Assembly (NCBI GenBank): GCA_030523725.1
Contig: JAUNHV010000009.1
Coordinates: forward strand, 1-60,395
Length of the DNA: 60,395 nucleotides
Reading direction: 5' to 3'
From: Synergistaceae bacterium
GTDB lineage: Bacteria; Synergistota; Synergistia; Synergistales; Synergistaceae
Shown: piece by piece, positions 20,580 through 60,080 of the stretch
Layout of the letters: every line of letters starts with the position of its first letter
Position numbering within the stretch: position 1 is the stretch's first letter
Made by a program: the position numbers and the translations under genes
Notes under the pieces: model-generated
Databases searched by the model: none
The model's input: the letters and a program-made list of their open reading frames with translations, nothing else
Told to the model about the DNA's origin: nothing

Positions 20580-20647
20580 AAGAAATTTGTTACAAGATAA
20601 AAGAGCAGTTACACAATTTTAACATTCCTATATTTGGAGGCTTTACA

Positions 20648-22471
20648 ATGAAAAAGTTTTTGTTAGCATTCTCTTTATTGATGTTAGTGTTATGCCAAAA
20701 TGTCGCATTAGCAAACAATGCTAAAATTATAGACAGAGTCAACAACCCTGCAGATGTTAAGAAATTATCCATTGAACAATTAGACCTCTTGGCAAAAGAT
20801 GTTCGTGAAGGAATTCTAAACCGTGCAAATCTCACCGGAGGACCTTTGTCTGCAGAGCTAGGAATGGTGGAAGCCACCATTGCCTTGCATTATGTGTTTG
20901 ACTCCCCTATTGATAAATTTGTTTTTGACACTTCTCACCAAATTTATACACATAAAATGCTTACTGGCAGGAAAAAAGGATTTTCCGACCCACTGCATAG
21001 TAACATCGGCATAACTTCAAACCAACATGAAAGTAAACACGACTTTTTCATTTTGGGGCACACCTCAACTTCCCTCAGCCTTGCTGGTGGTATGGCTAAA
21101 GCAAGAGATTTAAAGGGCGAAAAATATAACATCGTAGCAATTATCGGTGACGGCTCCTTGTCCGGAGGAGAGGCACTCGAGGGATTAAGCACCGGTGCCA
21201 CCTTGAACAGTAATTTCATCATCGTTGTGAATGACAATAACATAGCCATTGCGCCAGTCAATGGTGGATTATATGCAGGGCTTACCGATTTAAGACTTAC
21301 TAACGGTAAATCTGACAAAAATATCTTCAAGATAATGGGTTATGACTATTATTACTTGGAAAACGGTAACAACATTGCAGATTTAATTAAAATCTTCAAA
21401 CAAGTAAAAGACACACCAAAACCCACGGTAGTCCACATACACACCATTAAGGGTAAGGGCTATGAACCGGCAGAAAAAGATCCGGAAAAATATCATGTAG
21501 TTGCTCCACATACACTTGATAACAATGGAGCTAGTAAGCCAAAACCAGAAACATATATGTCTGTAACTGCTGATTATTTACTGGCAAAAAAGAAGAAAGA
21601 TAACAGAATAATCGCCATAACTCCTGCGACACCAGATGTTTTTGCCTTTACACCTGAGCTCAGAAAACAAATGGGGAAAAATTATATGGATGTTGACATC
21701 GCAGAACAAAATGCCTTGGGCTATATTGCAGGACTGGCAACAAATGGAGCTAAACCTATTCTTGGAGTAAAGGGATCATATATCCAAAGAGGATATGACC
21801 AAATTGCAGAAGATATTGCAATTAACAATGCACCAGCTACAATCTTAGTCTTTGTAGAAGGAATTTCAAACTGGGACGCAGCTCATTGCGGAACCTTTGA
21901 TATCCCATTGATATCCAACATTCCAAATATTGTTTATCTTGCGCCAACTTCAAAAGAAGAATATCTTGCTATGCTCGATTGGTCAGTTGAACAAAATAAA
22001 TATCCAGTGGCAATTAGAGTTCCTTATAGACCGACTGTTTCAACTGGCAAAAAGGACACAACAGACTATTCAAAATTAAACAAATATAAGCTAACACACA
22101 AGGGCGAAAAAATTGCAATAATCGGTGCAGGAAGTTTTTATCGCCTTGCACTTGAAACAAAAGAAGAGATAAAAAAGCAACTGGGGTTTGATGCAACCGT
22201 AATTAACCCCGTTTATTTAACCGGCATTGATGAAGATTTGCTAAACAAATTAAAAGCAAATCACAATATTGTAATAACCTTGGAAGACGGATGTCTTGAC
22301 GGCGGTTTTGGTGAAAAAATTGCAAGGTTTTACGGCAATTCTGATATGAAGGTATTAAACTATGGGGCAAAGAAAGAATTTACACACTATGTCCCCTTGC
22401 AGGAATCATTACAAAAATACCATTTAACAAAGGAACAAATTACAGAGGACGTCAATCAACTAATAAAATAA
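20648..22471 (+). CDS. DXS-like thiamine-diphosphate enzyme with an N-terminal signal peptide
   Basis: 607 residues. It aligns throughout with 1-deoxy-D-xylulose-5-phosphate synthase: DRVNNPADVKKLSIEQLD, LGMVEATIALHYVFDSPID, HQIYTHKMLTGRK, GHTSTSLSLAGGMAKARDL, the ThDP motif GDGSLSGG (167-169 = GDG) ending at NDNN (N197), GKGYEPAEKDPEKYHVV, DIAEQNALGYIAGLA, IQRGYDQIAEDIAI and AAHCGTFD. Two features set it apart. Residues 1-22 (hydrophobic LLAFSLLMLVL, cleavage after ALA) form a clear Sec signal peptide. The catalytic His of the DXS SGGH motif is P66 (LTGGPLS). The segment after NDN is also shorter than in DXS. GGAGG precedes the ATG. Location outside the cytoplasm and a different substrate are inferred. 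Confidence 0.8.
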   Translation: MKKFLLAFSLLMLVLCQNVALANNAKIIDRVNNPADVKKLSIEQLDLLAKDVREGILNRANLTGGPLSAELGMVEATIALHYVFDSPIDKFVFDTSHQIYTHKMLTGRKKGFSDPLHSNIGITSNQHESKHDFFILGHTSTSLSLAGGMAKARDLKGEKYNIVAIIGDGSLSGGEALEGLSTGATLNSNFIIVVNDNNIAIAPVNGGLYAGLTDLRLTNGKSDKNIFKIMGYDYYYLENGNNIADLIKIFKQVKDTPKPTVVHIHTIKGKGYEPAEKDPEKYHVVAPHTLDNNGASKPKPETYMSVTADYLLAKKKKDNRIIAITPATPDVFAFTPELRKQMGKNYMDVDIAEQNALGYIAGLATNGAKPILGVKGSYIQRGYDQIAEDIAINNAPATILVFVEGISNWDAAHCGTFDIPLISNIPNIVYLAPTSKEEYLAMLDWSVEQNKYPVAIRVPYRPTVSTGKKDTTDYSKLNKYKLTHKGEKIAIIGAGSFYRLALETKEEIKKQLGFDATVINPVYLTGIDEDLLNKLKANHNIVITLEDGCLDGGFGEKIARFYGNSDMKVLNYGAKKEFTHYVPLQESLQKYHLTKEQITEDVNQLIK

Positions 22472-22488
22472 AGAACAAACTTTTATAA

Positions 22489-22541
22489 ATAAGCGACTAA
22501 TTTGGAATTGAATACAAAAAATTCTAAATTAGCCGCTTTAA
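22489..22541 (+). terminator. Terminator after the DXS-like gene (repeat unit copy 1)
   Basis: Arms 22491-22509 and 22520-22538 (AAGCGACTAATTTGGAATT and its near complement) form a long stem followed by TTTAAT. It closely resembles the terminator at 31947-32000. Confidence 0.8.
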
Positions 22542-24906: not shown

Positions 24907-26967
24907 ATGCTTTTTGCATTAACTGCCACAGCAATTGCATTTATTGCCTATATTTTTACTACTATCTTGGGTATGGCTCTAATGCCCTCTGCTGTGTTTA
25001 ATGACAATTTAGTCGAGGAAAATAAAGAATTTGTAGCCCTAATATCGCCAATTTTGGGGACTGCAATTTGGATTCCCTGCATAGTTTCGCTTGGGCTTAT
25101 CATAGGTTTTACACGCCCCTTGATATACACGCTTTTTGCAATAGCCTTTATCTTTATCTATCTAAAAAGGGGCAAGATTTTTATTCCAAGCTCAAAGATA
25201 TATTGGCTTTTTTTGACAATCATACTGGTTGCAGCTTTTGCTGGTTGTTGCTCTATTGCACCACTTGAATTTGACGGGAAAATTTACTTTGGTTTGTCCC
25301 TCTATGACCACGTTAAAGCTGCTTTAATTGATTCTATCGCAAAATATGGATTACCACCCAAAAACCCATGGATTGCAGATAATGGTGTTCCTGTTAACGT
25401 AATTTATTATTACGGCTTGCAGGCATTTGCAGCACAGCTTACGCTTTTAACTGGTATCTCTGGATATATGGCAGATACTGCCCTTGTTATCGGATTTTGC
25501 GTCCTCATAAGCACATCATCTGTGATGGCTTTTACTCTCAAGTTGGCACAGAAAAGTAATTCCTACAAACCTTGCCACAAAAAAATTCTGCTTGTTTCAT
25601 TTTGCCTTATGTTTTTTGCTTGGAGACTTTCTGCATACTTTGAGCTCTTGCCTCAAGGCATAAAATCTGCACTTTCACCAAATTTAACGGTGCTTGGCTT
25701 TTGGCCTACTGAAAATGGCTGCATATGGTCTTCGCAACATTGTGTAGCTGCAGCCTTTGTTATGCTTATAATTTATTTATACTACCTGCTCTTGTCTTGC
25801 CGTGATAAAAAAAATATGATGGTTCTTACGATATTTATAGGTGTCATTGCATCTGCATCAGTTATTACATCTCTCTATGCAGGAGTTTTTCCTCTGGGAT
25901 TTTTGCTTGCTGCATTAGCATTTGTCTATGTTAAGGACAACGTATTTAGAAAAGACTTTAATTCAAAACTTACTTGTAAATTATGTGCTCTTGCAATAGC
26001 TTTCATAATAGCTTTTCCTTATTTGATGCAATTTTTTACGCAGCTAGGAAGCATTCCTATTGAATTAGGGGTGCAACCTGCTTATGGTGATTCATTCAGA
26101 GGCGGACTATTCCACATCCTTAAATATTTGTTTAGCTTTTATTTTATTATTCTGCCAAAGCAACTTGGTCTTTTTTACGTGCTTGGTGTTGGCTTTATTA
26201 TAGTTCATATTTTCAACCCAAAAGTGATAAGAAAACAGGACAGGTTTATACTTTTTGGAGAGCTTTTAACCATTTCAACTTTGATTTTCATATCATTTAT
26301 CCATTCCACTGTTTATTCAAACGATTTTGGTTGGAGAACATTAGAACCTACCTTATTGTTTCTCAACGCCTTTGCATCTTTGTGCTTTGTCAAGATTTAT
26401 AATTTCCTGTATGAAAATAAAAAGAAATTAGCATATGCGTTTGTCGTTATTATCGCGATAATTCAAGTGGTGGCATTATTATATCCTCAGGATAGTGAGC
26501 CAATAGAAATTCGCACAGACTACCCGGAATTGCGTTTGGTTTTTACCAAGGCTATAAAGGGTTGGAAAAAGGTGAGAGAAGTTACAGATGAAAAAGATTT
26601 GGTGTTATCCAATCCCGTAACCTTTAAGCATTTGTGTTATGTTGGTAAAATTGAGGATAATTACTGGGTAGATACTTTCTTTTCTTGCTACGCAAGGCGC
26701 TCTACTCCTGTATCTGATCCACTTTTTTCGTGGTGCTATTCCATGAATTATGACTTGAATAAATTAAAAACCCGTTTTAATCGTGTTGTTAAATTCTTTG
26801 AAGGTAACCCACCTCAAGCTGAAGTGGATTATATTATTGATGATTTAAAGGTGAAGGCAATACTCATTACGCCACTTGACGGACTATGGAAAAATGAAGG
26901 AAAATTACTAACACGATATAAAAAAGTCTTTTCAACTGATGACTATAAGGTTTTTGTAAAAAATTAA
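24907..26967 (+). CDS. Large polytopic membrane protein, GT-C glycosyltransferase-like (copy 1)
   Basis: 686 residues with roughly a dozen hydrophobic segments and a C-terminal soluble part of about 150 residues. The first large outer loop carries acidic pairs, APLEFDGKIY and SLYDHVKA, then IAKYGLPPKNPWIADNGVP and VIYYYGLQAFAAQLT. That layout, with the H..GLPP.NP..YYYGL pattern, resembles GT-C glycosyltransferases that use lipid-linked sugars. The specific family is not recognised. AAGGAG precedes the ATG. A full-length paralogue follows at 27061. Confidence 0.6.
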   Translation: MLFALTATAIAFIAYIFTTILGMALMPSAVFNDNLVEENKEFVALISPILGTAIWIPCIVSLGLIIGFTRPLIYTLFAIAFIFIYLKRGKIFIPSSKIYWLFLTIILVAAFAGCCSIAPLEFDGKIYFGLSLYDHVKAALIDSIAKYGLPPKNPWIADNGVPVNVIYYYGLQAFAAQLTLLTGISGYMADTALVIGFCVLISTSSVMAFTLKLAQKSNSYKPCHKKILLVSFCLMFFAWRLSAYFELLPQGIKSALSPNLTVLGFWPTENGCIWSSQHCVAAAFVMLIIYLYYLLLSCRDKKNMMVLTIFIGVIASASVITSLYAGVFPLGFLLAALAFVYVKDNVFRKDFNSKLTCKLCALAIAFIIAFPYLMQFFTQLGSIPIELGVQPAYGDSFRGGLFHILKYLFSFYFIILPKQLGLFYVLGVGFIIVHIFNPKVIRKQDRFILFGELLTISTLIFISFIHSTVYSNDFGWRTLEPTLLFLNAFASLCFVKIYNFLYENKKKLAYAFVVIIAIIQVVALLYPQDSEPIEIRTDYPELRLVFTKAIKGWKKVREVTDEKDLVLSNPVTFKHLCYVGKIEDNYWVDTFFSCYARRSTPVSDPLFSWCYSMNYDLNKLKTRFNRVVKFFEGNPPQAEVDYIIDDLKVKAILITPLDGLWKNEGKLLTRYKKVFSTDDYKVFVKN

Positions 26968-26989
26968 ATTTAACGAGTCATAGAGAAAA

Positions 26990-27016
26990 ATGCAAATTGA
27001 AAATCTATGCTAAAAT
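26990..27016 (+). promoter_or_regulatory. Extended -10 promoter before the second GT-C-like gene
   Basis: ATGCAA (26990-26995), 15 bases, then TAAAAT (27011-27016) preceded by TGC. It matches the promoters at 22544 and 32003 in design and in the surrounding letters (CTATGCTAAAATATGCG), but no hairpin precedes it. Confidence 0.5.
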
Positions 27017-27060
27017 ATGCGTCTGAGAAAGGAAATAAAAGAACAGAAAGGTAGGTCATC

Positions 27061-29121
27061 ATGTTTTTTGCATTAACGGCAACAATAATTGCACTTGTCA
27101 CATATATTTTTGCCACAGTTTTTGGCATGGTTTTAATGCCATCTGCTGTGCTTCTTGATAATCGTAACGAGGAAGACAAAGAATTTATAGCACTCTTATC
27201 GCCAATTTTGGGCACGGCCGTTTGGCTTGCCGCCATTATTTCGCTTGGTCTTATTATGGGTTACACGGCTCCTTTGCTATACACGCTTTTTACAATAGCT
27301 TTTGTTTTTATTTATCTTAAAAGAGAGAAGATATTTATTCCAAAAGCAAAATTCTATTGGATTTTCTTAATAATCATTACTGTTGTAGCTTTTGTTTCTT
27401 GCTGTTCAATTGCACCACTTGAATTTGACGGGAAAATTTATATTGGTTCATCTATATATGACCACGTTAAAGTTGCTTTAATTGACTCTATTGCAAACTT
27501 TGGATTACCACCAAGAAATCCTTGGATAGCAGATAATGGTATCCCTGTGAATGTGGTTTATTATTATGGTTTGCATGCATTTGCTGCACAGCTTACGATA
27601 CTTACTGGTCTTTCCGGCTATATGGCAGATACATCCCTAGTTCTAGGATTTAGCGTATTTATAAGTACATCAACCATATTAGCACTCAGCCTTAAATTGG
27701 CACAGAGGACTGGTCTTAACAAACCACAGCACAAGAAATTTTTGTTTATCGCATTTTGCCTTATGTATTTTTCTGCGAGACTTTCTGTATATTTTGATCT
27801 GTTGCCACAAGGTATAAAATCAGCATTTTATCCTGCAAATTTAGCAATGGTTGGCTTCTGGCCTCTGCTTATTAACTGTATGTGGACTTCACAACACTAT
27901 GTAGCTGCTACCTTTACCGTGCTTATAATCTATTTATATGACTTGCTCTTAGCCTGTAATGAGAAAAAAAGCGTAAAAGAATTAACAATATTTATTGGTA
28001 TTATTGCATCCGCAGCTATTATGACATCTATCTATGCTGGGGCTTTCCCATTTGTTTTCTTGCTTGTTGCATTTGTTTTTGTTTATATTAGAAATAGTAA
28101 ATTTAGAGAAGACTTTAATTCAAAGCTTCCTTCTGTATTGTGGGCTGTTGTAATAGCTTTTATAATAGTTTTTCCTTATGTGTTGCACATTTTTATAGAT
28201 CTAAAAGAAGCTCCTGTCGCATTCGGAGTGCAACCTACCTATGGTGATTCATTTAGAGGCGGTTTTTTACCACTTCTTAAATATATCTTGAGTTTTTATT
28301 TCATAGTTTTACCAAAGCACCTTGGACTTTTTTATGTGTTTGGACTTGGTTTTGTTATAGTTCATATCTTTAACCCAAAAATGAGACAGGAACAAGATAG
28401 ACTTCTACTTTTTGGAAAACTTTTGGCAATTACGACTTTAATTATTATAGTCTTTGTCCATTCAACCTTCTATTCAAATGATTTCGGCTGGAGAACATCA
28501 GAACCGACATCATTGTTCCTCTACGCTTTTTCTACTTTATGTTTAACAAAAATCTTTGTTTCCCTATATGAAAGTAAAAAGAAAATAGTCTATGCTTTAG
28601 TTGTTTTTATCACGATAATTCAGGCCGTAGCCTTATTCTATCCAAAATATGACAGTGCTATCATAATTCATACGAATCACCCTGAATTGCGTGAGACCTT
28701 TACCAAGGCAGTAAAGGGTTGGGAAAGGGTGCGAGAAGTTACAGACAAAAAAGATTTGGTTTTGTCCAATCCCAGTGCTTTTGGAGTTTTGACTGGAGGT
28801 AGTAATACGGCTGGTAATTGTGTAGATGTTTTCTTTTCTTGCTACGCCAGACGCAATACGCCTGTGTCTATTCCAATTTTTTCGTGGTGCTACTCAATGG
28901 ACTATGACCTTGATAAATTGAACGCTCGTTTTGACCGTGTCGTTAAATTCTTTGAGGGTGCTCCAGATCAAAATCAAGTGAATTATATAATTGACGACTT
29001 AAAGGTAAAGGCAATACTTGTTACACCAGTTGACGGACTATGGAAAAATGAAGGGAAATTACTAACGCGCTATAAGAAAGTTTTTTCAACTGCTGACTAC
29101 AAAGTTTTTGTTGCAAACTAA
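27061..29121 (+). CDS. Large polytopic membrane protein, GT-C glycosyltransferase-like (copy 2)
   Basis: 686 residues, exactly the same length as the gene before it and alignable end to end without large gaps. Shared stretches include APLEFDGKIY, LPPRNPWIADNGIPVNV, TYGDSFRGG, YSNDFGWRT, LTRYKKVFST. The most divergent part is around residues 575-590, where VTFKHLCYVG is replaced by SAFGVLTGG. The pair therefore came from a tandem duplication and kept the outer acidic loop. The same GT-C-like role is inferred. Confidence 0.6.
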   Translation: MFFALTATIIALVTYIFATVFGMVLMPSAVLLDNRNEEDKEFIALLSPILGTAVWLAAIISLGLIMGYTAPLLYTLFTIAFVFIYLKREKIFIPKAKFYWIFLIIITVVAFVSCCSIAPLEFDGKIYIGSSIYDHVKVALIDSIANFGLPPRNPWIADNGIPVNVVYYYGLHAFAAQLTILTGLSGYMADTSLVLGFSVFISTSTILALSLKLAQRTGLNKPQHKKFLFIAFCLMYFSARLSVYFDLLPQGIKSAFYPANLAMVGFWPLLINCMWTSQHYVAATFTVLIIYLYDLLLACNEKKSVKELTIFIGIIASAAIMTSIYAGAFPFVFLLVAFVFVYIRNSKFREDFNSKLPSVLWAVVIAFIIVFPYVLHIFIDLKEAPVAFGVQPTYGDSFRGGFLPLLKYILSFYFIVLPKHLGLFYVFGLGFVIVHIFNPKMRQEQDRLLLFGKLLAITTLIIIVFVHSTFYSNDFGWRTSEPTSLFLYAFSTLCLTKIFVSLYESKKKIVYALVVFITIIQAVALFYPKYDSAIIIHTNHPELRETFTKAVKGWERVREVTDKKDLVLSNPSAFGVLTGGSNTAGNCVDVFFSCYARRNTPVSIPIFSWCYSMDYDLDKLNARFDRVVKFFEGAPDQNQVNYIIDDLKVKAILVTPVDGLWKNEGKLLTRYKKVFSTADYKVFVAN

Positions 29122-39175: not shown

Positions 39176-39892
39176 GTGCTAAATAAATTTTTTCACAGGG
39201 AGCCAAAGAAGTTTCGCCATGAATTGAAATATCTCGTCAATATGTCGCATTTGACCATCATAGATAACAACATTTCAAGCATCATGGATATTGACAAAAA
39301 TATAGTAGCTGGCAATACTTATTCTATCAGGAGCTTATACTTTGACGACATTGATAACAGTGCATTCGCTTCGAATGTAAACGGAACAGATCCACGAGAA
39401 AAATTTAGGATAAGAATATACAATGCTTCAACAAAACATATTGCTCTTGAACTGAAAAAAAAAGAAGCAACCTTGACACAAAAAATCTCCTGTGCTATTG
39501 ATTTTGACACGGCATGCAAGTTAATAAATGGCACATTGGAATATGACGAAGCTTTGCCACCGTTACTAAAAAAATTCTTCGTTCTACAAGAAACTCATCT
39601 GCTCCACCCGACAATAATAGTTGAATATGACAGAAAGCCTTATGTATATGCAGATGGTAATGTCCGCGTCACCTTCGATACAAATATTAGAGCCTCAAGT
39701 AACATGCAATCATTTTTTGACAAGAATCTTGTATGCACTCCAGTATTACTTTGGGGTCATCATGTATTAGAAGTAAAGTTTGACGAATTTTTTCCAGACT
39801 TTATACGACACGCAGCACAGGTTAATGGTTTGTCTCAGACCACTTTTTCAAAATTTTATTTATGTAAAACGCGAGAGGAAATTTTATTATGA
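39176..39892 (+). CDS. VTC-domain polyphosphate polymerase family protein
   Basis: 238 residues, one VTC domain. The N-terminal FRHELKYLV, then RSLYFDD, KFRIRIYN and ALELKKK carry the basic residues of the tunnel where VTC enzymes build polyphosphate from ATP. VEVKFDEFFPDFI-like residues near the end complete the fold (seen as LEVKFDEFFP). The start is GTG at 39176 because the FRHELKYLV motif must be included and no ATG lies before it. The ribosome site is weak, suggesting coupling to fumC. Polymerase activity is inferred from family. Confidence 0.8.
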   Translation: MLNKFFHREPKKFRHELKYLVNMSHLTIIDNNISSIMDIDKNIVAGNTYSIRSLYFDDIDNSAFASNVNGTDPREKFRIRIYNASTKHIALELKKKEATLTQKISCAIDFDTACKLINGTLEYDEALPPLLKKFFVLQETHLLHPTIIVEYDRKPYVYADGNVRVTFDTNIRASSNMQSFFDKNLVCTPVLLWGHHVLEVKFDEFFPDFIRHAAQVNGLSQTTFSKFYLCKTREEILL

Positions 39893-40575
39893 ATTCATCA
39901 CTAGATATAAAAGAAATACTAAAAATCGCTAGAAAAGACCTTTTGACTCAGATTACCTTGCCTTATTTCTCTGTTGTTTTAAGTTTTATGTTTGCGATTT
40001 TATTAGCACTCTATTTATTTTTTGTTTACAGAATTTATACAAGAAAATCATTTTATGACAAGGAATTTAATATGTCTTTACCAATAATTACAATTATTAT
40101 CACTGCTGTGATTATTGCGATACAATCGAGCCTCGTGGTATCTCTTGGTATGGTCGGGGCTCTGTCTATTGTTCGTTTTCGCACTGCCGTAAAACGTCCA
40201 ATGGACTTAGCTTTTGTTTTCTGGGCAGTTGCTACAGGAATTTTGTGTGGCACAAGGCTTTTTGCTATTGCCATAATTATGAACATTCTGCTCACCCTAG
40301 GGCTAATATTAATGGAGCTTCTGCCAGTCGCAAAAGCTCCAAAGCTTTTGGTAATTCACGCAAACGAAACTATCGACAAAACAAAGCTCTTTGATATTAT
40401 TCGTGCTGTAACACCAAATTACACGGTAAAATCAGAGAGCAATACCAGTGGAAATATCTGCCTGATAATTGAAGCAAGATTCCCTAAATCACATGATTTA
40501 ATTGCAAATATTTCTGCTCTAGGTGAAGTCAAAAAGTGTTCTCTCATAGCACATGATGGAGAAGTTGCGTTTTAA
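39889..40575 (+). CDS. DUF4956 membrane protein
   Basis: 228 residues with four hydrophobic segments in the first 150 residues and a small ferredoxin-like C-terminal domain. LGMVGALSIVRFRTAVKRP is the family signature. DUF4956 genes typically lie between VTC-domain and CotH genes, as here. GAGAGGAA precedes the ATG, and the start overlaps the VTC stop (ATGA). Function unknown; a membrane partner of the polymerase is plausible. Confidence 0.85.
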   Translation: MNSSLDIKEILKIARKDLLTQITLPYFSVVLSFMFAILLALYLFFVYRIYTRKSFYDKEFNMSLPIITIIITAVIIAIQSSLVVSLGMVGALSIVRFRTAVKRPMDLAFVFWAVATGILCGTRLFAIAIIMNILLTLGLILMELLPVAKAPKLLVIHANETIDKTKLFDIIRAVTPNYTVKSESNTSGNICLIIEARFPKSHDLIANISALGEVKKCSLIAHDGEVAF

Positions 40576-40595
40576 TTTCTAGGATAACAAACGTT

Positions 40596-42299
40596 ATGTT
40601 TTTCCGTGGTCAACGACTAAAAATACTATGCTTCATCGGTGTAATCTTACTGTCTCTTATTGTCTTATGCTATTACTCTACGACCACAATAAACACTAAA
40701 AATCGTGATACTACCATTACAGTTTCGAAGCCACGATTTTCTCACTCTTCAGGTTTCTATAAAAAACCCTTTAAGCTAGAAATTAAGGCTGGAGCGGGAC
40801 AAAAAATTTACTACACTCTCGACAGTAGTAAGCCAACAAACAGCTCACAACTCTACACATCCCCAATTTTAATGGACGATGCAACAAAGAGACCAAATGT
40901 TTACGCTAATGTCAGAGAAATTGCTATTAACGATGTAGTTCCACCTGCTTATAACCTTGAGAAATGCCAAGTTGTTCGTGCCGTTGCATATGACAAGGAT
41001 GGAAATAAAGGACAGGAAACCTGTGCGTCTTATTTTGTTGGTAAATCTCCTAGTGATTTTGACGGATGTAACATAGTTTCTCTCATTGTTGCCCCAGAAG
41101 ATTTATTTGACAGCAAAAGAGGAATCATGGTGCGTGGCTCACGCTACCCTGTGCTAGACGCATTACGATTATATAACTCTAACAGTTATCATGTGCTGTT
41201 ATACACAGAAGCGTTAAATTACTTGTGGAGAGGCAAAAAAAGCGAGAGACAGGCATATTTTCATTTCTTTGACAAACAAGGCGCCTTCTTGCAAGGCAAA
41301 CACTGTGGGGTAAGAATGCATGGATGGTCAACTCGTGAAGATTCGCACAAAGCCTTTAGCCTATTTGCCAGAGAGGAATACGATGGGACATCTTGTTTTG
41401 AACACCCTTTCTTTGGTGACGGCTTTTTACCTTCCTCGATTGTACTGTTTTCAGGGGGGCAAGATCAGGCTACCTTTTTAAAAGATTATCTTGTACATTC
41501 CCTTATACCACCATATAAATTAAAATTTGATTATTATAAATTTATACCAACTGTGCTCTTTTTGAATGGCGAATACTGGGGATTTTACTGGATTCATTCC
41601 CGTTTTGATGATGCTTTCATTTCTTACTACAACAACACTCGTGATGCGAAAATTTCCCGAGTAAAAATAGTTCCGAAGTTTATACCTCAGTCACAAGGTG
41701 GTGTTAAGGGCATCTTAACGTTAAATGCTTATCAAGATTTTTTGCAATTTGTTCAGCGAGCGGATTGCTCAAATGACGCCACTTACAGAGAAATTTGTAA
41801 AAAAATCAACATTGCGGGATTGATAGATTACTACGCAACTGAGATTTACATAGGAAATTTAGACTGGCCACGCCATAATGTCAGATTATGGCAGAAGTCC
41901 GATGATGGAGAAGAAAATCTCAACTACCTTTGGCATTACCAGCTCTTTGACCTACAAATGGCAATGGAAGATAGTGAAAGAAATGATTTGGATTATATCG
42001 TAAAAAATGATTTACTTTTTGGTTCACTTTGGAAAAATGCGCAATTTAGAAAACAATTCGAGACACGATTGTATTTTATAGCAGATAAAGTTTTTGAGCC
42101 AAAGAAGGTAAAGCGTTTCCTTTTGAATTCCGCGAAGGTTTATAAAAAGGCTCTTGACAAAAATTGGAAAAGATATTCGCAAGATGCCTTCGCAAAGGAT
42201 TTTGACAACCAGCTAAACATTATTATTAACTTTTTTGAAGAGCGCCCTAGAGAAATAAGAAAATGTTTTAGCCATGAACAGTTGGCTACAATTCGTTGA
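40596..42299 (+). CDS. CotH-kinase family exported/membrane protein with chitobiase-like domain
   Basis: 567 residues. An N-terminal membrane segment (about 8-27) is followed by a chitobiase/hexosaminidase C-terminal-type beta domain (about 45-145; FYKKPFKLEIKAG, IYYTLDSSKPTNSS). The CotH fold follows: GVRMHGWSTRED, FLNGEYWGFYWIHSRFDD and LWHYQLFDLQMAME. CotH proteins are atypical kinases that phosphorylate proteins. Here the location is outside the cytoplasm. It closes the fumC-VTC-DUF4956-CotH operon and is followed by a terminator. Confidence 0.82.
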   Translation: MFFRGQRLKILCFIGVILLSLIVLCYYSTTTINTKNRDTTITVSKPRFSHSSGFYKKPFKLEIKAGAGQKIYYTLDSSKPTNSSQLYTSPILMDDATKRPNVYANVREIAINDVVPPAYNLEKCQVVRAVAYDKDGNKGQETCASYFVGKSPSDFDGCNIVSLIVAPEDLFDSKRGIMVRGSRYPVLDALRLYNSNSYHVLLYTEALNYLWRGKKSERQAYFHFFDKQGAFLQGKHCGVRMHGWSTREDSHKAFSLFAREEYDGTSCFEHPFFGDGFLPSSIVLFSGGQDQATFLKDYLVHSLIPPYKLKFDYYKFIPTVLFLNGEYWGFYWIHSRFDDAFISYYNNTRDAKISRVKIVPKFIPQSQGGVKGILTLNAYQDFLQFVQRADCSNDATYREICKKINIAGLIDYYATEIYIGNLDWPRHNVRLWQKSDDGEENLNYLWHYQLFDLQMAMEDSERNDLDYIVKNDLLFGSLWKNAQFRKQFETRLYFIADKVFEPKKVKRFLLNSAKVYKKALDKNWKRYSQDAFAKDFDNQLNIIINFFEERPREIRKCFSHEQLATIR

Positions 42300-46648: not shown

Positions 46649-49600
46649 TTACAGTGTAAAGCGGAAACCTAAATTAAAGTTTATCGAGTTACTTACATCC
46701 TTGAAGTGTTTGGTGAGTTCTGCATAGAAGTAACTTGCGTCTGTCATGTTCCAGCCTCCACCGAGGGAAAGTTCCCACCAGTTTCTCGCACTGTCTTGTT
46801 TGTATGATGCATCTCCATACAAGATGTTTGTTGAACCAGCAAAGTCATGATAGTAGCTGCCTCTTAAGTAGTAATTAAAGTTTTTAACCTTCTTACCCAA
46901 GGCAACACCAAGTCTTGTCACAAAGTGGTTTGTGCTATCTATGTCTGCCAAGATGCCTCTGCTACTTGTCTTCTTTGCTCCAGCTAAATAACCATAGATA
47001 ACTTCTGCCTGTGGCTCGAAGTAGAATCCATTCTTACCAATATTTGCTCTATATCCATATTCACCGGATAAGGTTACTCCGTTCATACCGTAGTCGAGTT
47101 TTGTGGAAAGTCCTGCGTCGTAGCTTGTTGTGTCGCTTTCATATCTACCATAACGGAAGATGAAGTCAAAGTAGTGACCACTGTCATAAATCTTTGTGTA
47201 GTATGCGCTAAGTGATGTGGATTTTACATCGCCACCACCAATCTTATATGACTGGCTTCCATCAAAATGCTCAACAGAAAGACCAAAGTAACCGCGAGCA
47301 GCCGTATTGTTCTTTAAGGCAACGTCATAACCAAGCTGATAGAGGTTACCGGAAACATTTAGTTGTCTGCCAGTATTCACATCATCGTTGCTTCTCTGGA
47401 AACGTGCCCAACCTGTGTTGCTTGCTTCTCCTCCACGCAGATCACCGAGGCGTTTCTGCAGGTTGTTGATACCACTTAACCAAGCTACATTTATTCCATT
47501 TGCACTATCGGATATCGATTTTGTTGTTTCGCTGACCTCTGGGGCGTCTATGTCTTTGCTAAAGGAGAATTTACCTGTTTTGTCGTCATATGCAACCGTG
47601 TATTTCCACATATCTGATGCTACATGTGTAACGTCTGAGGCAACATGTCCCTTCAAGGTGTCTGTCTCTGTGAAGGCAATTTTTGTTACGTCTTGTTTTG
47701 CGTCAGACAAAAGCGTAAGAGCTGTAACGTGAAGCTTTCCTGTGCCGCTAACGGTTCCACCTTCGGCAAGGTCAAGGGTATCCATCGATTTCTTTGCAAG
47801 GTCTACATCAAGCATTAAATTACCATCACCTGCCATGTTGATGTTATTGACCACGTAATTTGACACCTTATTGTCCTGGAAGTCAAAGCCGCCACCGTTA
47901 AAGGTCAAGTCATTATTGGCAATGTAACTTTCCATTGCAACTGTAGAATAACCATTGGTAGCTACTATGTTCTGATTGTTAATTTCTGCTGCAATATTAG
48001 TAGCTGCCCTGAGGTCTATTGTTCCAATCTCTTCCTCTAGTGCCGTGTTCACCTGCTGGGCTAGGGTTCCACCTTTCAGGATAAGTGTTGCCCCATCGTT
48101 TGTTACTTCTCCCCCAACATTATCTGCTGAAATTTCAAGAGACTTACCAGAAAATATTGTTATAGCGTTAGCAATCTTTTCGTCGGATGCTATAACGCCA
48201 TCAATTTGTGTTATACCTCCGGCACCTTCGGTTTCTTTTATTTCCTTCGTTAATGTTACGTTTGTTCCTGTGAGGGTCAATGTCGCATCGTTGGTCATAA
48301 CGTTGCCAAGCTGATCTGCATCAATCGTGAATGAGCCGCTGTTGATTATGTTACCACTTCCGCTAACACCAAATCCTGAAGCAAAGGTTGTCGTTCCTGT
48401 TACGCTCATTGTTCCATTATTTACCACGGAACTCTTCATCGTGTTTGTATCGTCAAACTCAAGTGTGCCACCGTTTGTCACAAATGCTCCATCAAAACCT
48501 TCCACCGTCATCTTAGAAATGGTCAAGGTATTTCCCTCATTAACTGTAACACCCTTCTTGCCATTACCATTCAACGTCCAACCATTACCATTTAAGGTAA
48601 GATTCTTTCTTGTGGTTGTCGGCAAGCTAGAATTTAACGTACCAAGAGAATCCTTACCTTCTGGCAGAGACCCAGCTGCTGTGCCGCCTTCTATCAGGGT
48701 AACATTGTCTATAAGATCATATGTATCCGGTAGCTCTGTTAGTGCAGTTGAAGAAATGAGGTTTATTGCATCATAAAGAGTTAAACCTTCCAAAGCCTTC
48801 ATTTGGAGTTTTCCCTTATCTGCGCCAGTTAGCGGTATAAATTTGTAAGCAATCTCCGCTCCTGCAACTATTGTCTGACCAAGAAGGTTAAGGGTTGTAA
48901 GGTCACCTCCGTTAAACAAGGCTATCTCCGTAGTGTCTCCTACTTCAATGTCCGTATTTGCGATATTTGCCAAAGCAAGGTTAAGTTTTATAGTACCAGA
49001 TGCTTTGCCTGTAACGTCTATTGCGTCGCTTATGCTACCAGCTTTTGCAAGTTTTGTGTTAAACACAATCTTATCTGCCTCACTAGCAGCTGTGAAGTTA
49101 TTTAATGCCACAGCGTTACCTGCCGTCATGGCAGAGGCTGTACCATCGGTAAGGTCAATCGTTGCGCCATTCAAGGTAACACTATCCGTGTTATCAAGAT
49201 GTCCTTTGCCAGTCATTAGCGTTCCCTTGGTAGAAATGCTCTGATTGGCTATTGTTACGCCTGTGCCAAATGATTTTACGCCACTTCCAAGGTCAAGTGT
49301 TCCTGTCCCTGAGGAAGAAACATTTTTGCTTAGCGTACCATCTCCATCTGCAAGGGCTAGTGTTCCATTGTTTTCCACATCACTCTTCAAGTTTGTTGCG
49401 TCAATTGCAAGTTTTTTGTCTGTCATGACGGTTGTTGTTGTGGCAGTCAAGGTGTCATTCATGTCCAAATTTGTATTAACAAAGACCGTGCTTTGCGTTA
49501 CTGCGGCGTCTGCTGTGATCTTGTTTGTGCCTGTACCGTCACCAAAATTGATGACTCCCTTTGCTCCAGTGCCAGCAGAATCCTTCACTACCGCAGCAAA

Positions 49601-52600
49601 TGTATGAGATGCTGCCGCATTTGTAAGGGTGAGTGTACCATCGTTGGTGACAGCGCCATCATCGCTATTTATCACAATTTTATCAGCTTCTGTAGTAAAG
49701 TTTCCAGCGTCTGTTATGGTGAGCGCTTTTTGCGTTATGGTCTTTTTGTTAGCATTAGTAACTGTGCCACTTATCTTTGTGGTGCCTTTATTATCTGCAG
49801 TGCTTGAAATTTTGTCTTTAATCGTTCCACCATTCAGGGTAAGGGTGTTGTCATTTGTTATGCCATAGCTTGAAGCAAGGTTGTCTGCATTTGCCTCAAC
49901 ATCTCCTGTCGTAACTATCTTACCCCCGGTTATGGTGTAACTGCCAAGCGTTCCTGCTCCGAGATTTGCTGTTGCAGCGTTTGCTGCTGCTGTACCGTTT
50001 AGCGTTACAGCGCTATTTAGGTTGCCTGCGCCTATTGTGAAGCTCTTGCCTCCTGCAACTGTTGTTGTCGTGGCAGTCAAAGCTGCTTGCACATCAAGGT
50101 CAGTATTAACCGTAACAGTTTTTTGTGTAATTGCACCAGAAGCTGTGATTTTATTGCTACCAGCAAATTCAAGTGTTCCTTTACCACTATCCGCCGTTAC
50201 TGTTTCTTCCAGCTTATCTGGAGTTGTTCCGTCTGCTGTAAGCTTCAGGGTTCCATTATTGGTAATGGGTCCTGCGTTGCTATTTATCACTAGCTTATCC
50301 ACTTCTGTGGTAAGGTTGCCGCCATCTGCTACGGTAAGCGCTTTTTGCGTTATGGTCTTGTTATTATCATTTGTAACAGTGCCGGTAATTTCTAGTGTAC
50401 CAGTGCCTGCTGTGGCGTTTGAAATATTATCCTGAATCACTCCACCGTTTAATTTCAAGGTGTTGTCATTCTTTATGCCATAGCTTGATGCAAGGTTATT
50501 TGCATTTGTCACAACTGCTCCGGCAATAACTATGTTACCTCCGGTTATTGTGTAACTGCCAAGTGTTCCTGCTCCGAGCTTTGCTGTAGCAGCGTTGGCT
50601 GCTGCTGTTCCGTTCAACGTTACAGCGCTCTTTAGCTTATCTGCGTTTATTGCAAGGCTCTTGCCCTCTGCGACTGTTGTCGTTGTAGCGGTGAGGGTAT
50701 TTTGCATATCGAGGTCTGTATTTACCGTAACAGCGTTTTGTGTAATTGCTCCCTTTGCTGTGATTGTTTTGCTTCCTGCAAATTCTAGTGACCCCTTACC
50801 AGCGTCTGCTGTTATTTTTTCTTCAAGCGCGTTGGTCGCTTCGTTACCGGTAAGTTTTAACGTGCCATTGTTGGTAATTCCGTCACTTGCAGCAAGTTTA
50901 TTTATTTCAGTTGTAAAGTTGCCACCTTCATTTACAACAAGCGCTTTTTGCGTTATGGTCTTGTCGCTGTTTGTAACAGTACCGGTTATCTTTGTTGTAC
51001 CGTCAGCTCCGGTTATGTCCTTAGTTATTGTAGCTGTATCTGCAAGGATAAGTGTGCCAGCATTATCCACCTCTGTGCCACCTATCTTTGAAAAGTCGCT
51101 CAAGGTGAATTGTCCAGCTTTTTTTATTTCAACATCACCGACTATTGAACCGCTTGTAGCATCTAGTGTGACATCTGTGGCAGTTGAGCCGTCACCAATT
51201 TGCGTCTTTCCTGCACCAATTATAGCTTTAGCTATTGTATTTGTTCCTGTGACAACAAATTTTCCACCATTATTTAATGTACCTGTCAAATTCGCAAAAT
51301 TGGAAACAGTGAGTTGTGCCGAGTTCATTATTTCAACATTATTTGCCATTGAAGCTGCTGCATCTAATGTAACAGCAGTATCAGTTGAGCCATCACCAAT
51401 CTCCGTTTTACCGCCACCGGTTACACCTTTAGCTATTGTGTTCGTCCCGGTGACAATGAGTAAACCACCGTTAGCAATATCTCCGGTAAGTTGTGCAAAT
51501 TGGCCATTTGTAACTGTCAGCTGACCATTTGATTTTATATCCACTTTTCCCGCTACGGAACCTTTAGCATCTAGTGTCACAGCAGTGGCAGCTTCTCCGT
51601 TACCAATCTGCGTTGTGCCACTGCCGGTAATTGCGCTTTTTATTGTTCCGTCTGCGTTTATGAGGAGTATTCCATTCTCTCCTATGGATATACCTTCTGT
51701 AGTAATAAGATTATCAATATCTGCAGTTAATATATTAGCAGAACCAATGGTAATCTTCTTTTGTGTAATTGTTTGATCAGAAGCTAGGACAAAATTTGTA
51801 TTAAAGTTTGTTGTTCCTTTTGCTCCTGTTCCTGCATCATCGCTTATATTATTTGAGAAGGTAGTGCCATTCGTTACATTCAAGGTGCCGTCATTTGTAA
51901 CGAGATTTCCATTGAAACCGCTGGCTTTAACATTAGACAATGTTAATGTATCTCCCTCATTCACCTTAACTCCACTATTACTACCACCGATCAAGTTTTT
52001 GCCGTTGCCGTTAATTGTGAATGTGTCTCTTGTCGTTGTCACAGCAGGATCTCCATTTAATGTGCCTAAACCTTTGCTGTCCACCGTTATGTTTTCTGTC
52101 ATAATATATTCGGTTGGGGCATTGGCTTTTGTTGCCTCTGAACTTAAATTAATTGCTTCATAGAGGGTACAGCCCATTGTGGTTGTTATATCCAACACAC
52201 CTTTAGTGCTTGCAGGAGTGAAGATGTAGGAGATGAGTGAACTTGCTGTTACGTTCGTACCTGTCAGTGTAAGCCCTGAAAGATCACTGCCGGCAAAAAG
52301 TGTTATCTGTGCAGTGTCTCCCACCTTGAAGTTGTTATCGCGAGCAACATTAGCTGAAGAGTGTGCAAGGTTAAAGGTGCCAGAAATTTTATCTGCATTT
52401 ATGGAGTCATTAATGGCAGTTATCGTTTCGCCTGTCTTTGAAAGCTTTGTGTTAAACACTATCCCGGAAGCTTCTGTTGTAGCTAGCTCCTTTAAATGTA
52501 CTTTATTACCATATTCACCCAGTTCAGAAGCAGTTCCATTTGTGATGTCTATTGTTCCGCCCTTCAAGGTAACTTTATCTGTTGCATCTAAATGGTAATC

Positions 52601-55600
52601 TTGACCTGGTCCTGCACCGACACCAGTTTTTAATACTTTATCTTTGGCAAGGACAATATCCTGATTAGTAACCTTGGCACCGCTTGCAAATGTTGTGTCA
52701 GTATTTAGATTAAGCGTTCCTCGTTTATCTGTATCTGCAGAAATGTTAAAGCCGATTTCTGCACCAGCTGTATCATTAATGGTCACAGTTCCATAGTTTA
52801 ATAAGCCATCTTCTCCTAATGTAAGGTTCCCTGCTGCTGTTTCTAATGTGCCGTTGTTCGTAATTTTAGCAGCTGTCCAAGCTCCCGTATTTGTAACATC
52901 TGCGCTTGCTGCTACTGTGATTGCATTTTGCGTAATGGCATTGGCATTACTGATATATGCTGCACTTGTTCCGTCACCAAATTTCACATTTCCCTTGGTC
53001 GTGTCTGTTGCACTTACGGAATCACTTATTGCAGCTCCTAGTTCAGCTCTTGCGCTTGCGGAAGTTCCACCAGTGAGTGTAACTGATCCATCGTTTTTAA
53101 TTCCGTTTGTTGGGGTGAGTTTATTTGCATTTGATGTTAAAGCACCCTCTTCGGCAATTTCAATCTGAGAAGTAGCTAACGTGCCGTTGTTAATAACATT
53201 TGCGCCAGAAGCAACCTTGATAGTTGGTTGCGCAAATGTTTGGCTAGAATCAACTGTAAAATCGGTCATAAAATTCGTCGTGGTACTACTCACAGCCTTG
53301 CTAGGCCTTACATCAAGGCTGAATGTTGTACCATCTATATTCAAGGTGCCATCATTGACAATAGCACCTGTAACACCACCACCTATCGTTACATTTTTTA
53401 AGGTTAATGTTCCCTTCTTTACGGTAAATGGGTTAGCCATATTCTTTACTGTAATAGAATCCACTGTCAATTCGTGACCATCACCATCGACGATAAGCCC
53501 CTTCTTGCTGCCACCATCTACGGTGTTTTTGCCCGTTCCATCACCCTTTAGGGTAAGAACCTTTCCCTCATCGGAACGCACTACAAATGTACCCCAGTCT
53601 GCTGAAAGGGTCTCATCTTCAAACATTGTAAAGTTTTTCGTGTTAGTAATTTTGCCCACGTTTCCAAGTGCTTCGCTTGTGGTTGTAGCTACATAGTCAA
53701 AGCCATTCAAGTAAACAAAATTATCCTCCTCCCCTATTTCCTTAAATGTTGGTATAAAGCCACCACCAATAGAGGCATCTGCACGTGTTAAAACACCAAT
53801 TACCTTTAACCCATACAGTCCAGTACCACTTCCAAATACATCAACAGGATTAATTGCAAAATGTGGACCTTTGGGATCTGCAAAATATGGATCATTCATT
53901 ACCTGGATGTTTAACGTCGGCTCGTCACCATCAAGTATCACTGTTTCTGCAACAAGGTGGTCCGCCAAGCTTGAATAAGCTTCACCTTCAGCATAACCGT
54001 GGCTTTGGATTTTTAAGAGTCCGTTCCTGATTGTGAAGAAGTTTGGGTCACCATCACCACGTACTATTGCTGTCACAAAAGAACCGTCATATGCCTTCAG
54101 ATTATATTCCGGTATTAAGGCACCAGCTTTATCACGCTCATATTTGTCTCCCTCTGCTGGTACTAAGCTTTTCATCTTAAAGCCGGAATAGGCGAGGTCT
54201 ATCACACCTTCGCTTGTGCCCTTGGACAGGGTAATAGTAGCAACATTATCGTTAGACGAGAGGTCTTTGAAGGCAGGATACCATGTACCACCGTTTAACA
54301 AATCTAACTTAATATCGCCTTTTTCATAAAGCTCCCAAGAAGGTAATGTGGCCAAGAGATTACCATAGAGGTAAGAATCTTTGTTCTGCAACGCCATTGT
54401 TAGCTTTGCAGTAGTTGACCCACTGTCTTTTGTAGCCGCCACATCACCCTCTATTTGATATGTGCCACCAGAGAAACCAGAGGCTGTTGTGCTGTCATAG
54501 CCAAGGGTAAGCTTGCCAGGGGCATAGCCTTGTAATCCTTCTACTACAATTGCAAAGGCTTCTTTGGGAGATTCTATGTTGCGTATAGATACAGAACCCT
54601 TGTGTGCCACAGTTGCGGCCCAGACTTCATACCCATAGGCACAACCGTTTGCAGCTGTCGATTTTACACCATCTATGGTGAGTTTGCCACTTCCGAGGTC
54701 TAATTCGGCTCCGATGTACATTCCTAGACCATAAGCTTCCCCACGACTAGACTGAACTCCGGTAACTGTTACATCTTTACCATTTGTCTTTACTCTAGTG
54801 CCAGAGTCGCTCAAGTACACACCACGCACACAAACACCACGCACACTAGGCGTATAGTCTACTCCAGACACGTTTGTGATGACTATCTCACCACTGTTAA
54901 CTGTCGCACCACCCTCAACGTCAAGTCCAAAGGCTTCACCACCAGTAGATTTTATTCCCTCGCCTTCTTCATTTCCACCGATTGTCAGCTTTCCATAGGT
55001 AGCAGTAGGACCAGTACCCTTAGTCAGGTCTAATTTTGCACCGTCTGCAACAGCAACCCCAATTGCTCTGTAAGCATTGTCTGTGGCATTATCAACTATG
55101 CCAGTCACTGTTAAATTTTGCCCATGTGTATTTATTGTGCTTGGCGTTGGCGTGGCAGCACCGTCAGTGCCCGTCAAAAACACACCAGCAACCGGATCAA
55201 ATACGTCTTCACCCACATAGCTTTCACCAGACACATTTTTGATTTCTATCTCACCACTGTTAACTGTCGCACCACCCTCAACGCCAAGTCCCAAGGCTGA
55301 ATATGTACTGTCTGTTTCACTTATAACTGTGTCAATCGTTATTTTTTGTTCATTTGTATCAACGCGAGCCGCATCCAAATACATACCATATGCATAACGG
55401 TTGCTGCTTTTAATATTTATAATCTTTATCTCGCCACTGTTAACTGTCGCACCACCTTTAACGTCAAGCCCAATGGCTTCACCACCAGTAGCTTTTATTC
55501 CCTTGTCTTCTGAGTCATTTGAGCCTATTGTCAAGGTGCCATAGGTCTTAGTGACACCTTCAACCTTAGTCAGGTCTAATTTAGCACCGTATGCAACATA

Positions 55601-58600
55601 AACTCCAGTTGTATTAGCTTTACCACCTGCGGCGGTGTTAACTATGCCAGTTACTGTTAAACCTTGCCCATTTGTATTTATTGTGCTTGGCGTTTGCTCC
55701 TCTCCTGTACTCTTGCCTTCCAAATACACACCGGCAACCGGATCACTTGAGCTATTACCTGACACATTTTTGATGTCTATCGCACCAGCGTCAACAGCAG
55801 CACCACCGGTAACGTTAAGCCCATAGGCAGCTCCATTAGTAGATTTTATTCCCTTTACAACCGTCTCTGTGTCATCATCACCTATTTTCAATGTGCCATA
55901 GGTGCCACCGTTAGTAAGGTCTAATTTAGCACCGCTTTTAACATAAACACCACTGGCGTAACCATCACTAGTCTGAATTCCTTCAACTATTACATTATTA
56001 CCATTCGTCTTCACGCTGGTGCTTGCGTTATTGTTCACACTATGGTTCAAATACGCACCATACGTATCTCCATATCCTGTCACATTTTTGATATCTATCT
56101 CACCACTGTTAAGTGTCGCTTCACCCTCAACGTAAAGTCCATAGGCTACACCATTAGTAGATTTTATTCCCTTTACAACCGAACCTTCATCATAATCGCC
56201 GATTGTCAGCTTTCCATAGGTAGCAGTAGGACCAGTACCCTTGGTCAGGTCTAATTCAACATCGCTTTCAACATAAACACCACTGGCGCTACCTTCAGTA
56301 GCCTGAATTCCTTCAACCGTTACAGCATTACCATTCGTCTTTACACTGGCACTGATTTCCTGACTATTACTCACAAACATACCCGAGCTGTATTGCCCCG
56401 ACACATTTTTGATGGCTATTCCACCAGCGTTAACTGTTGCACCATCAACCAAAAGACCAATAGCTTCACCATTAGTAGATTTTATTCCCTTTACAACCGA
56501 ATCATCATAATCGCCGATTGTTAATGTACCAAATAGTGTATCCCCAAGAGGGGAGGAAAGGTTTAATTGAGAAGCACCTGCAACATGAACCCCAGCAGCA
56601 CCCCAAGCGGCCCCTTCTGTTGCGGTGTCAACTACGCCAGTTACTGTTAAATTCTCTCCATACGTATTCACCCCGAAAGGTACTTGGGGCTTTTCCCCTG
56701 ATCCATCCACAAACACACCAGCAACTGTTAGCTCCTGAGCTCTGTTGCTCTTTCCCGACACGTTTGCGATGTTTATCGCGCCACTGATAACCACTGCCGA
56801 GGAAACTTTAAGCCCATAGGCAGTTCCATTAGTAGATTTTATGCCCTTACCTTCTCCGTCTGCACCAATTGTCAATGTGCCAAATGTTGGAGAGCTACTA
56901 CTAACATCCGTAAGCATTATTCCTACATTTTGTGCAGCTTCTAATCCAACAGCGTATAAAGCATTTTCGCTTTCAGCAGTGTCTGTTATTGACTTGATTG
57001 TTAAACCGTTGTTGACAACTATAGGACACAGAACATCAGTTGTAGTTGTCCCCATTGCCAAAAAACCAGCAACAGGCGCCTCCACCAGTCCTTTAGTACT
57101 TTTTCCCGACACGTTTTCGATGTCTATCTCGCCAGCCCAAACAGCAGGCATAGATGTCCCAAACATAGTACCCGTGACGATAAGCCCCATAGCAGTACCG
57201 TTACTAGAGGTAACCCCATCTATTGTTAATTTGCCAAATTTTTTAGGTTTTGGATAGTCATCCGCCAAATAAATGATTGATGTATTAGACATAAGCCCAA
57301 CAGCGTATGAAACACCTCCGCTTTCAGCAGTATCAGTTATGTTCTTAATTGTTAAATCATTTCCATATGTGATTATCGCGCCGGAGGAAGAGAAATCTAG
57401 AGCTCCTGCAATCACACCGGCAACTGGTAAAAGATTACCGCCCATTCTCGATACTCCCGACACGTTTGTGATTTCTATCGCACCAGCGTTAACTGTCGCA
57501 CCACCTTCAACATGAAGTCCATAGGCACTGGCAGCAGTGGATATTATTCCTTTGCCAGCATCTGCTCCACCGATTATCAGTTTTCCATAGGTGCTGCTGC
57601 CATCATAAAGGTCTAGCGTTGCGTTATTCAGGTGAACACCGTAGGAAGCTGCAGCAGGGCTACCTCCGCTACCTTTTGACGTAACTGTATCAATCGTTAA
57701 ATCATTTCCACCAGTCTTAACAATAAGATTCTCAGCGTGAAGTCCTGTTGCGCCTGCACCGGTAACTTCTTTTTCGTTAATTGCAGAAATTGTAGCAGGA
57801 CCGCCACTAAGGGTAATGGTTTTGTCTGCAGTACTTTCCTCCATATACATACCATAGACCCAAGGACCGCCGCTAGCGGCTGTGGACTTTGCAGAAATTG
57901 TTGCACCCGCGCTATCCAACTTAAACTCGCCTTCTTCCGTGTCCGGGTCAACCTGGTCAACAAGCCAAACTGCCGCCGGCGCACCACTCTTTATATTCTC
58001 ACCTTCAACGGTGATTTCTTCCCATCCTTGATCTGTTGGACCGCTCAGCTCCTTTACCGTCTCGTTACTAGTTTTTGGAGTACCAAGGGTAAAACCGGTT
58101 AAGATAATCGTAGAACCTTCAATGTCAAACGTTGGGGTGAATTTCTTACCTTTATACCGTGTTACAACGCCTGTTACATTGTTTAACGCACCCTGAATAC
58201 TAGCAGCACTTATCACAGGAATTCTCTCACCACTAACGCTACTTGTCCAAGTCTCAAAGCCAGGATCCCACTCAATCTGAATTTTTAATGTGTCTGTGTT
58301 AGTGATACCCAAGGCGCCAACTGTAATTGCATCCGCTGTTTTACTACCAAAATTGCTTCTAATCTTGAGAAGGTCATCCTTCTTCACAGAAAGAAATTTT
58401 GATATGGTAAAATTGTTTTCAAAGGCAAGGGTAGCACCACCCCCCAAAAAAACACTAAATACTGTCGTTCCAGCCGGGGCAGCTGTTATCTTGCCTGTCT
58501 TGCCCGGGTCAACATAGACGACTGTTTGTTGGTATGTTGCAGCATCAAAGGAAAGGTTGAAGCCTTTATCAAGATGTAAGAACAAAGCTTTGTCCTTGTG

Positions 58601-59935: not shown

Positions 59936-59980
59936 CTTGAAATTTCTCTCCTTTCTGAACTTACCGTTCACTTGTTTTGT

Positions 59981-60001
59981 GGCACCGCAAACCTCGGTGC
60001 C
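59981..60001 (-). other. Perfect hairpin in the autotransporter leader
   Basis: GGCACCG and CGGTGCC pair around a seven-base loop, about 50 bases before the autotransporter start. It could be an RNA leader structure or protein site. No known riboswitch class is recognised around it, and no promoter could be placed with confidence between it and element C. Confidence 0.4.
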
Positions 60002-60080
60002 CATGCCTAAAACCCACATTGCGACAATCTATAAAAAACCTTGGCTTACGCCATGATTTCCCTTTTTTACTTTTTATTTT

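Follow-up and report, generated by a model that had tools for sequence, protein, structure and literature searches.

Organization of the DXS-like locus

The window, that is, the whole 60,395-nucleotide stretch of Synergistaceae DNA analysed here, carries on its forward strand an intact open reading frame (20648-22471, +) encoding a 607-aa protein related to 1-deoxy-D-xylulose-5-phosphate synthase (DXS), the cytoplasmic enzyme of the first step of isoprenoid synthesis. In the sequence, the ATG is preceded by a Shine-Dalgarno GGAGG (20636..20640, +) with a 7-nt spacer. An earlier note on this DNA, made from the sequence alone, had matched the protein to DXS along its length, and Pfam bore this out by assigning DXP_synthase_N (PF13292; 20732..21301, +), which provides the thiamine-diphosphate (ThDP) diphosphate side, Transket_pyr (PF02779; 21590..22024, +), which contains Glu353, the retained counterpart of E. 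coli Glu370, and Transketolase_C (PF02780; 22082..22441, +). The motifs listed in that note (GDG, NDN, IAEQ, QRGYDQ and AAHCG) were all found.

Upstream, argC lies on the same strand and ends 68 bp before the DXS-like gene; read-through from argC is possible. Downstream, a terminator-like hairpin (22491..22538, +; fold z-score -7.1) is followed, in this order, by genes for two acyltransferases, two 686-aa membrane proteins, an MBOAT protein, an AlgX-like protein and argB. The placement between argC and a surface-glycan operon given in the earlier note was correct, with argC upstream and the acyltransferase and MBOAT genes downstream, but the gene is not a member of that operon: the strong hairpin intervenes and relatives of the gene have other neighbours, so a connection of the two was dismissed. 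The DXS-like gene most plausibly forms a unit of its own in an arg region that also holds a glycan-modification cassette. No Rfam elements were found near it or upstream of its relatives. The two 686-aa membrane proteins are a closely similar tandem pair (24907-29121), the first without a Pfam match. Elsewhere in the window, a CotH kinase protein comes after genes that by reading resemble VTC-type and DUF4956-type genes (39176-42299), and a 4456-aa protein (46649-60019, -) that carries a signal peptide and repeats looks like an autotransporter adhesin.

A predicted signal peptide

Residues 1-22 of the DXS-like protein (20648..20713, +) form a predicted Sec signal peptide with predicted cleavage at ALA/NN. 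Its N-terminus, MKKFLLAFSLLMLVLCQNVALA|NN, comprises two lysines, a hydrophobic core without charge and the ALA cleavage site, and is similar to those of other exported proteins encoded in the same window. The textbook Sec signal claimed in the earlier note was therefore recovered in its sequence features, and its character is kept in 21 relatives. The simple rule used to call signal peptides is no proof of export by itself, as it also flagged Asd, one of the cytoplasmic proteins encoded in the window. A lipobox is unlikely, as the candidate LVLC has a Leu preceding the Cys. A wrong or later start was rejected too, since the sequence offers no in-frame ATG between the signal and residue 73. 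The host genome encodes POTRA domains like those of outer-membrane assembly proteins, an indication that the cell has an outer membrane and with it a periplasm. We infer that Sec exports the DXS-like chain and that the signal is cut after ALA, leaving a mature protein of residues 23-607 (20714..22471 with the stop codon, +), supported by the subfamily profile match (NF008968) and the AF2 model.

Subfamily assignment and origin of the gene

Among the NCBIfam profiles, the window protein scored 796.4 bits against NF008968/PRK12315 (cut-off 510; residues 27-607) and passed the broader DXS model NF003933 (579 vs a cut-off of 395). With 424.5 bits it remained below the cut-off of TIGR00204, the classical dxs model (465.95), which some Gastranaerophilales relatives narrowly passed. 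An AF2 model built from the window and locus proteins reached a mean pLDDT of 91 and agreed with PDB entry 9KPQ with a TM-score of 0.93-0.97 and an rmsd of 1.6-1.7. This best solved relative is, according to its PDB title, a ThDP-dependent enzyme of the DXPS-like subfamily; our literature search found no paper on it. By profile and predicted fold, the window protein belongs to this short DXPS-like subfamily (PRK12315).

The host genome (1.55 Mb, rated 100% complete) encodes a further DXS. The second, signal-free copy that the earlier note had proposed to look for, and whose absence would have counted against its reading, was found in an ispA-dxs-tlyA operon (C11:35960-37792): it keeps the GGH motif, scores 643 bits against TIGR00204 and is flanked by an ispA-like gene and genes reading as tlyA, nadK and recN. 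Dxr is also present. Judged from this gene content, the window protein is not the isoprenoid DXS of the genome.

Across 183 genomes of the order of the host, the PRK12315 cut-off was passed in this genome only, and no close copy was found elsewhere among 188 genomes sampled from the phylum. A scan of named genomes returned Gastranaerophilales (Melainabacteria) MAGs as top matches, with at most 63% identity, and a sample of that order gave up to 65%; PRK12315-type proteins occurred in 268 of its 383 genomes. In the trees, the window protein was nested inside Gastranaerophilales proteins, on a long branch (0.43). Its isolation within the host order and this nesting make horizontal acquisition from a Gastranaerophilales-like donor probable, as the simplest reading of the data. 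No direct donor was found in the genomes scanned, and a search of viral contigs with the window protein gave no match.

Fourteen Gastranaerophilales genomes were examined closely. No classical DXS was seen in any of the 14; what they do carry is PRK12315-type copies, a split transketolase and, without exception, Dxr. The signal-free PRK12315-type copy is therefore probably the DXS of these bacteria. The subfamily lacks conserved equivalents of R420 and R478, and yet no other DXS candidate accompanies the intact Dxr in the genomes examined.

A proposed exported branch in Gastranaerophilales

When the signal-peptide rule was applied to 172 distinct family proteins, 20 were picked, the window protein included. 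L133 and L134, which have clear signals when the first start is taken, were added, and L139 was left out, as a better-looking start with a strong ribosome site lies inside it and its other traits (Trp403 kept, charge -16) are those of signal-free copies. Among the best matches listed, the resulting signal-bearing set comprised the window protein and at least 21 relatives in 21 genomes. In 16 of these 21 genomes a second, signal-free copy was found; in the other five it was not seen, perhaps owing to MAG incompleteness. Further Gastranaerophilales genes with matches reaching the early residues showed no signal in those that were readable. In L139, and perhaps also in L133 and L134, the signal is directly followed by another ATG that has a Shine-Dalgarno-like sequence, which could yield exported and cytoplasmic forms from one gene.

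Over 16 aligned signal-bearing proteins, identity was 28% in the signal region and 68% in the mature part, while the signals still begin with Lys, have a hydrophobic core and end in a cleavage site of small residues. Divergence of the sequence with retention of its character is what a functional signal peptide would show. The tree grouped the window protein with L133, L134 and L138, all signal-bearing (SH-aLRT 95), and a single clade for all signal-bearing proteins was not rejected (p-AU 0.49). The best tree needs three changes of signal state, so multiple gains, or some losses, are possible, and other Gastranaerophilales relatives near the window protein (L041 and L135-L137) are signal-free. 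The mature parts also differ in mean net charge, from -6.2 in the exported copies to -20.5 in the signal-free Gastranaerophilales copies and -25 elsewhere, the window protein having -2; this contrast, like that at Trp403 described below, rests on few independent origins, and a comparison with the signal that corrects for phylogeny had few transitions to draw on. Several exported copies carry C-terminal tails rich in Lys, Glu and Pro, long in L162, L163, L165 and L166 (up to about 200 residues), and a lipobox was read in two, L166 and L173. Together with the canonical signal-free DXS elsewhere in the host genome, the clustering of at least 21 signal-bearing relatives with the window protein upholds the separate branch suggested earlier: from sequence comparison, a distinct exported branch of the DXPS-like subfamily is well supported.

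At L044:2724-5962, an exported gene is preceded by genes for an AraC_N/AraC-type regulator, a CMD/cupin protein, an FMN reductase and a flavodoxin. Parts of this gene set recur at other loci, although they are not universal and are absent from the window; such neighbours hint at extracytoplasmic carbonyl or redox stress. The CMD/cupin protein and the flavodoxin at L044 bear signal peptides, so that other, usually cytoplasmic protein types also appear to be exported at this locus. Upstream of signal-free DXS-like genes (L225, L226, L237, L214, L126 and others) we observed a 15-bp palindrome, TGATAG-N3-CTATCA, overlapping a promoter-like TTGAC...TATAAT, which makes it a candidate operator of the cytoplasmic copies. 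It was not found in the window.

Active-site residues

The ThDP/Mg motif GDG...NDN (residues 167-197; 21146..21238, +) was evident from the sequence and its alignment, which also showed that the window protein keeps the equivalents of H80, H299, E370, R398 and H431 (E. coli numbering is used for DXS residues unless stated otherwise), H299 as His283 (21494..21496, +) and H431 as His413 (21884..21886, +). The earlier note had reported the loss of the His of the SGGH motif. This proved correct: GGH reads GGP, the codon of Pro66 (20843..20845, +) aligning with His49. His occupies this position in all 95 other subfamily members compared, in E. coli DXS and in the canonical DXS of the host. In this alignment, the His-to-Pro change is therefore unique to the window protein; the loss is real, but it is no mark of a separate branch, since the exported relatives keep the His. 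Likewise, the segment after NDN is indeed shortened, yet this does not set the protein apart: the gap is present in every subfamily member compared, which makes it a trait of the subfamily.

His49 of E. coli DXS is reported as essential in a passage of PMC9068908 that cites Querol 2001. It is part of a network, H431-D427-R99-H49-H299, that keeps lactyl-ThDP until the acceptor binds (PMC12633525). Of these residues, the window protein keeps H431 and H299; Pro replaces H49, Leu replaces R99, and D427 is not aligned to an Asp. The residues for the phosphate of D-glyceraldehyde 3-phosphate (D-GAP), Y392, R420 and R478, are replaced by Lys, Val (Val403; 21854..21856, +, by alignment) and Tyr, respectively. 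R99, R420 and R478, and mostly also Y392, are not conserved across the DXPS-like subfamily. In Deinococcus radiodurans DXS, R423, the counterpart of R420, binds this phosphate, and the R423A variant has a Km for D-GAP similar to that for plain glyceraldehyde (PMC5851014). The same position, 403 in the window protein, is Trp in all 44 signal-free Gastranaerophilales copies and is not Trp in 20 of the 21 exported copies, so that the exported branch and its cytoplasmic sisters are set apart by a residue of the acceptor site. At its active site the window protein goes further than its exported relatives. Besides the His, three near-invariant positions are altered (G122I, F378Y and T412A), which amounts to 4 of 97 near-invariant subfamily positions; two other members have more changes.

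Proposed role and alternative explanations

On balance we lean, by a narrow preference, towards a horizontally gained, exported PRK12315-type enzyme that would act in the periplasm, where, with ThDP as cofactor, it would join a keto acid and a small acceptor that carries no phosphate. In a Gastranaerophilales-like donor, a DXS-like gene would have been duplicated, one copy gaining a Sec signal and the other staying cytoplasmic. Sec would export the chain, cleavage would follow ALA, and the dimer would fold in the periplasm and take up ThDP and Mg there, a supply of ThDP outside the cytoplasm being an assumption. The enzyme would then decarboxylate pyruvate or another 2-keto acid and hand on the resulting two-carbon unit to an aldehyde that is likewise small and not phosphorylated. 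In the window protein alone, Pro in place of His49 would break the network that holds the intermediate, leaving an ungated decarboxylase/carboligase or a weakly active enzyme, and DXP synthesis in the manner of the E. coli enzyme is therefore unlikely for it. More tentatively, and with a probability clearly short of even, gut Melainabacteria and this diderm host would perform periplasmic ThDP carbon-carbon chemistry by means of a dedicated, exported DXS paralog, using cofactor and keto acid found outside to make an ecologically useful hydroxyketone (for instance a signal) or to remove reactive aldehydes.

The evidence was weighed against three other explanations. The protein might be secreted and folded, its DXS-type catalysis ended by the change of His49 to Pro, and serve to bind ThDP or another ligand (as in cofactor capture) or have a structural role. 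The Pro at an otherwise invariant catalytic position, the long branch and the four altered near-invariant positions point that way, but the equivalents of E370, H431, H299, H80 and R398 and the ThDP motif are all retained, the number of altered positions is small and exceeded by two other members, and the exported relatives retain the His; we regard such a pseudoenzyme as unlikely, at about one chance in a few. Improbable to a greater degree is a bifunctional or spare DXS, an exported copy still making DXP or non-phosphorylated deoxyxylulose outside the cytoplasm, to be taken up by the cell itself or by its neighbours. DXP may well be a product of the subfamily, given that in the Gastranaerophilales genomes examined Dxr is accompanied by no DXS candidates other than PRK12315-type copies, yet the Arg420 and Arg478 equivalents are missing, the Trp found at the former position in signal-free copies is lost from the exported ones, the window protein has lost His49, and a phosphorylated substrate is unlikely outside the cytoplasm.

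It is highly improbable that the enzyme is cytoplasmic, its hydrophobic start being due to chance or bypassed by a later translation start. The post-signal ATG with its own Shine-Dalgarno-like sequence in L139, and perhaps in L133 and L134, and the signal-free state of the nearby L041 and L135-L137 would fit it. In the window, by contrast, a good ribosome site precedes residue 1 and no internal ATG is available before residue 73; moreover, signal character has persisted across diverged relatives, and the mature part of signal-bearing copies has a shifted charge.

If the periplasmic enzyme that we favour is real, a cofactor-dependent, keto-acid-using enzyme acts outside the cytoplasm in common gut bacteria. 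A few literature searches of partial coverage turned up neither an exported DXS-type enzyme nor a description of the signal-bearing Gastranaerophilales DXPS-like copies. As a caution, genes labelled 'DXS' in gut genomes need not encode isoprenoid enzymes.

Comparison with known systems

Transketolase shares the superfamily and domain layout with the window protein and matches it weakly in sequence (about 87 bits vs a cut-off of 488), whereas the top structural matches listed were all of the DXS type. Canonical DXS (TIGR00204; E. coli Dxs and D. radiodurans 2O1X) is closer, with the same domains and ThDP site and with the H80, H299, E370, R398 and H431 equivalents in common, but the window protein bears a signal, falls under the TIGR00204 cut-off and is without equivalents of H49, R99, Y392, R420 and R478. 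The DXPS-like subfamily represented by 9KPQ matches over the full length (about 54% identity to 9KPQ) with the same fold, an equally short post-NDN segment and equally missing D-GAP phosphate residues; the window protein differs from it by the signal peptide, the Pro for His, the Val at the Trp/Arg420 position and a far less acidic composition. The signal-bearing Gastranaerophilales copies (L133, L134, L138, L044 and others) share with it the signal, the subfamily, the low acidity and, mostly, the loss of Trp403, but all keep the His, and some have Lys/Glu/Pro-rich tails or a lipobox.
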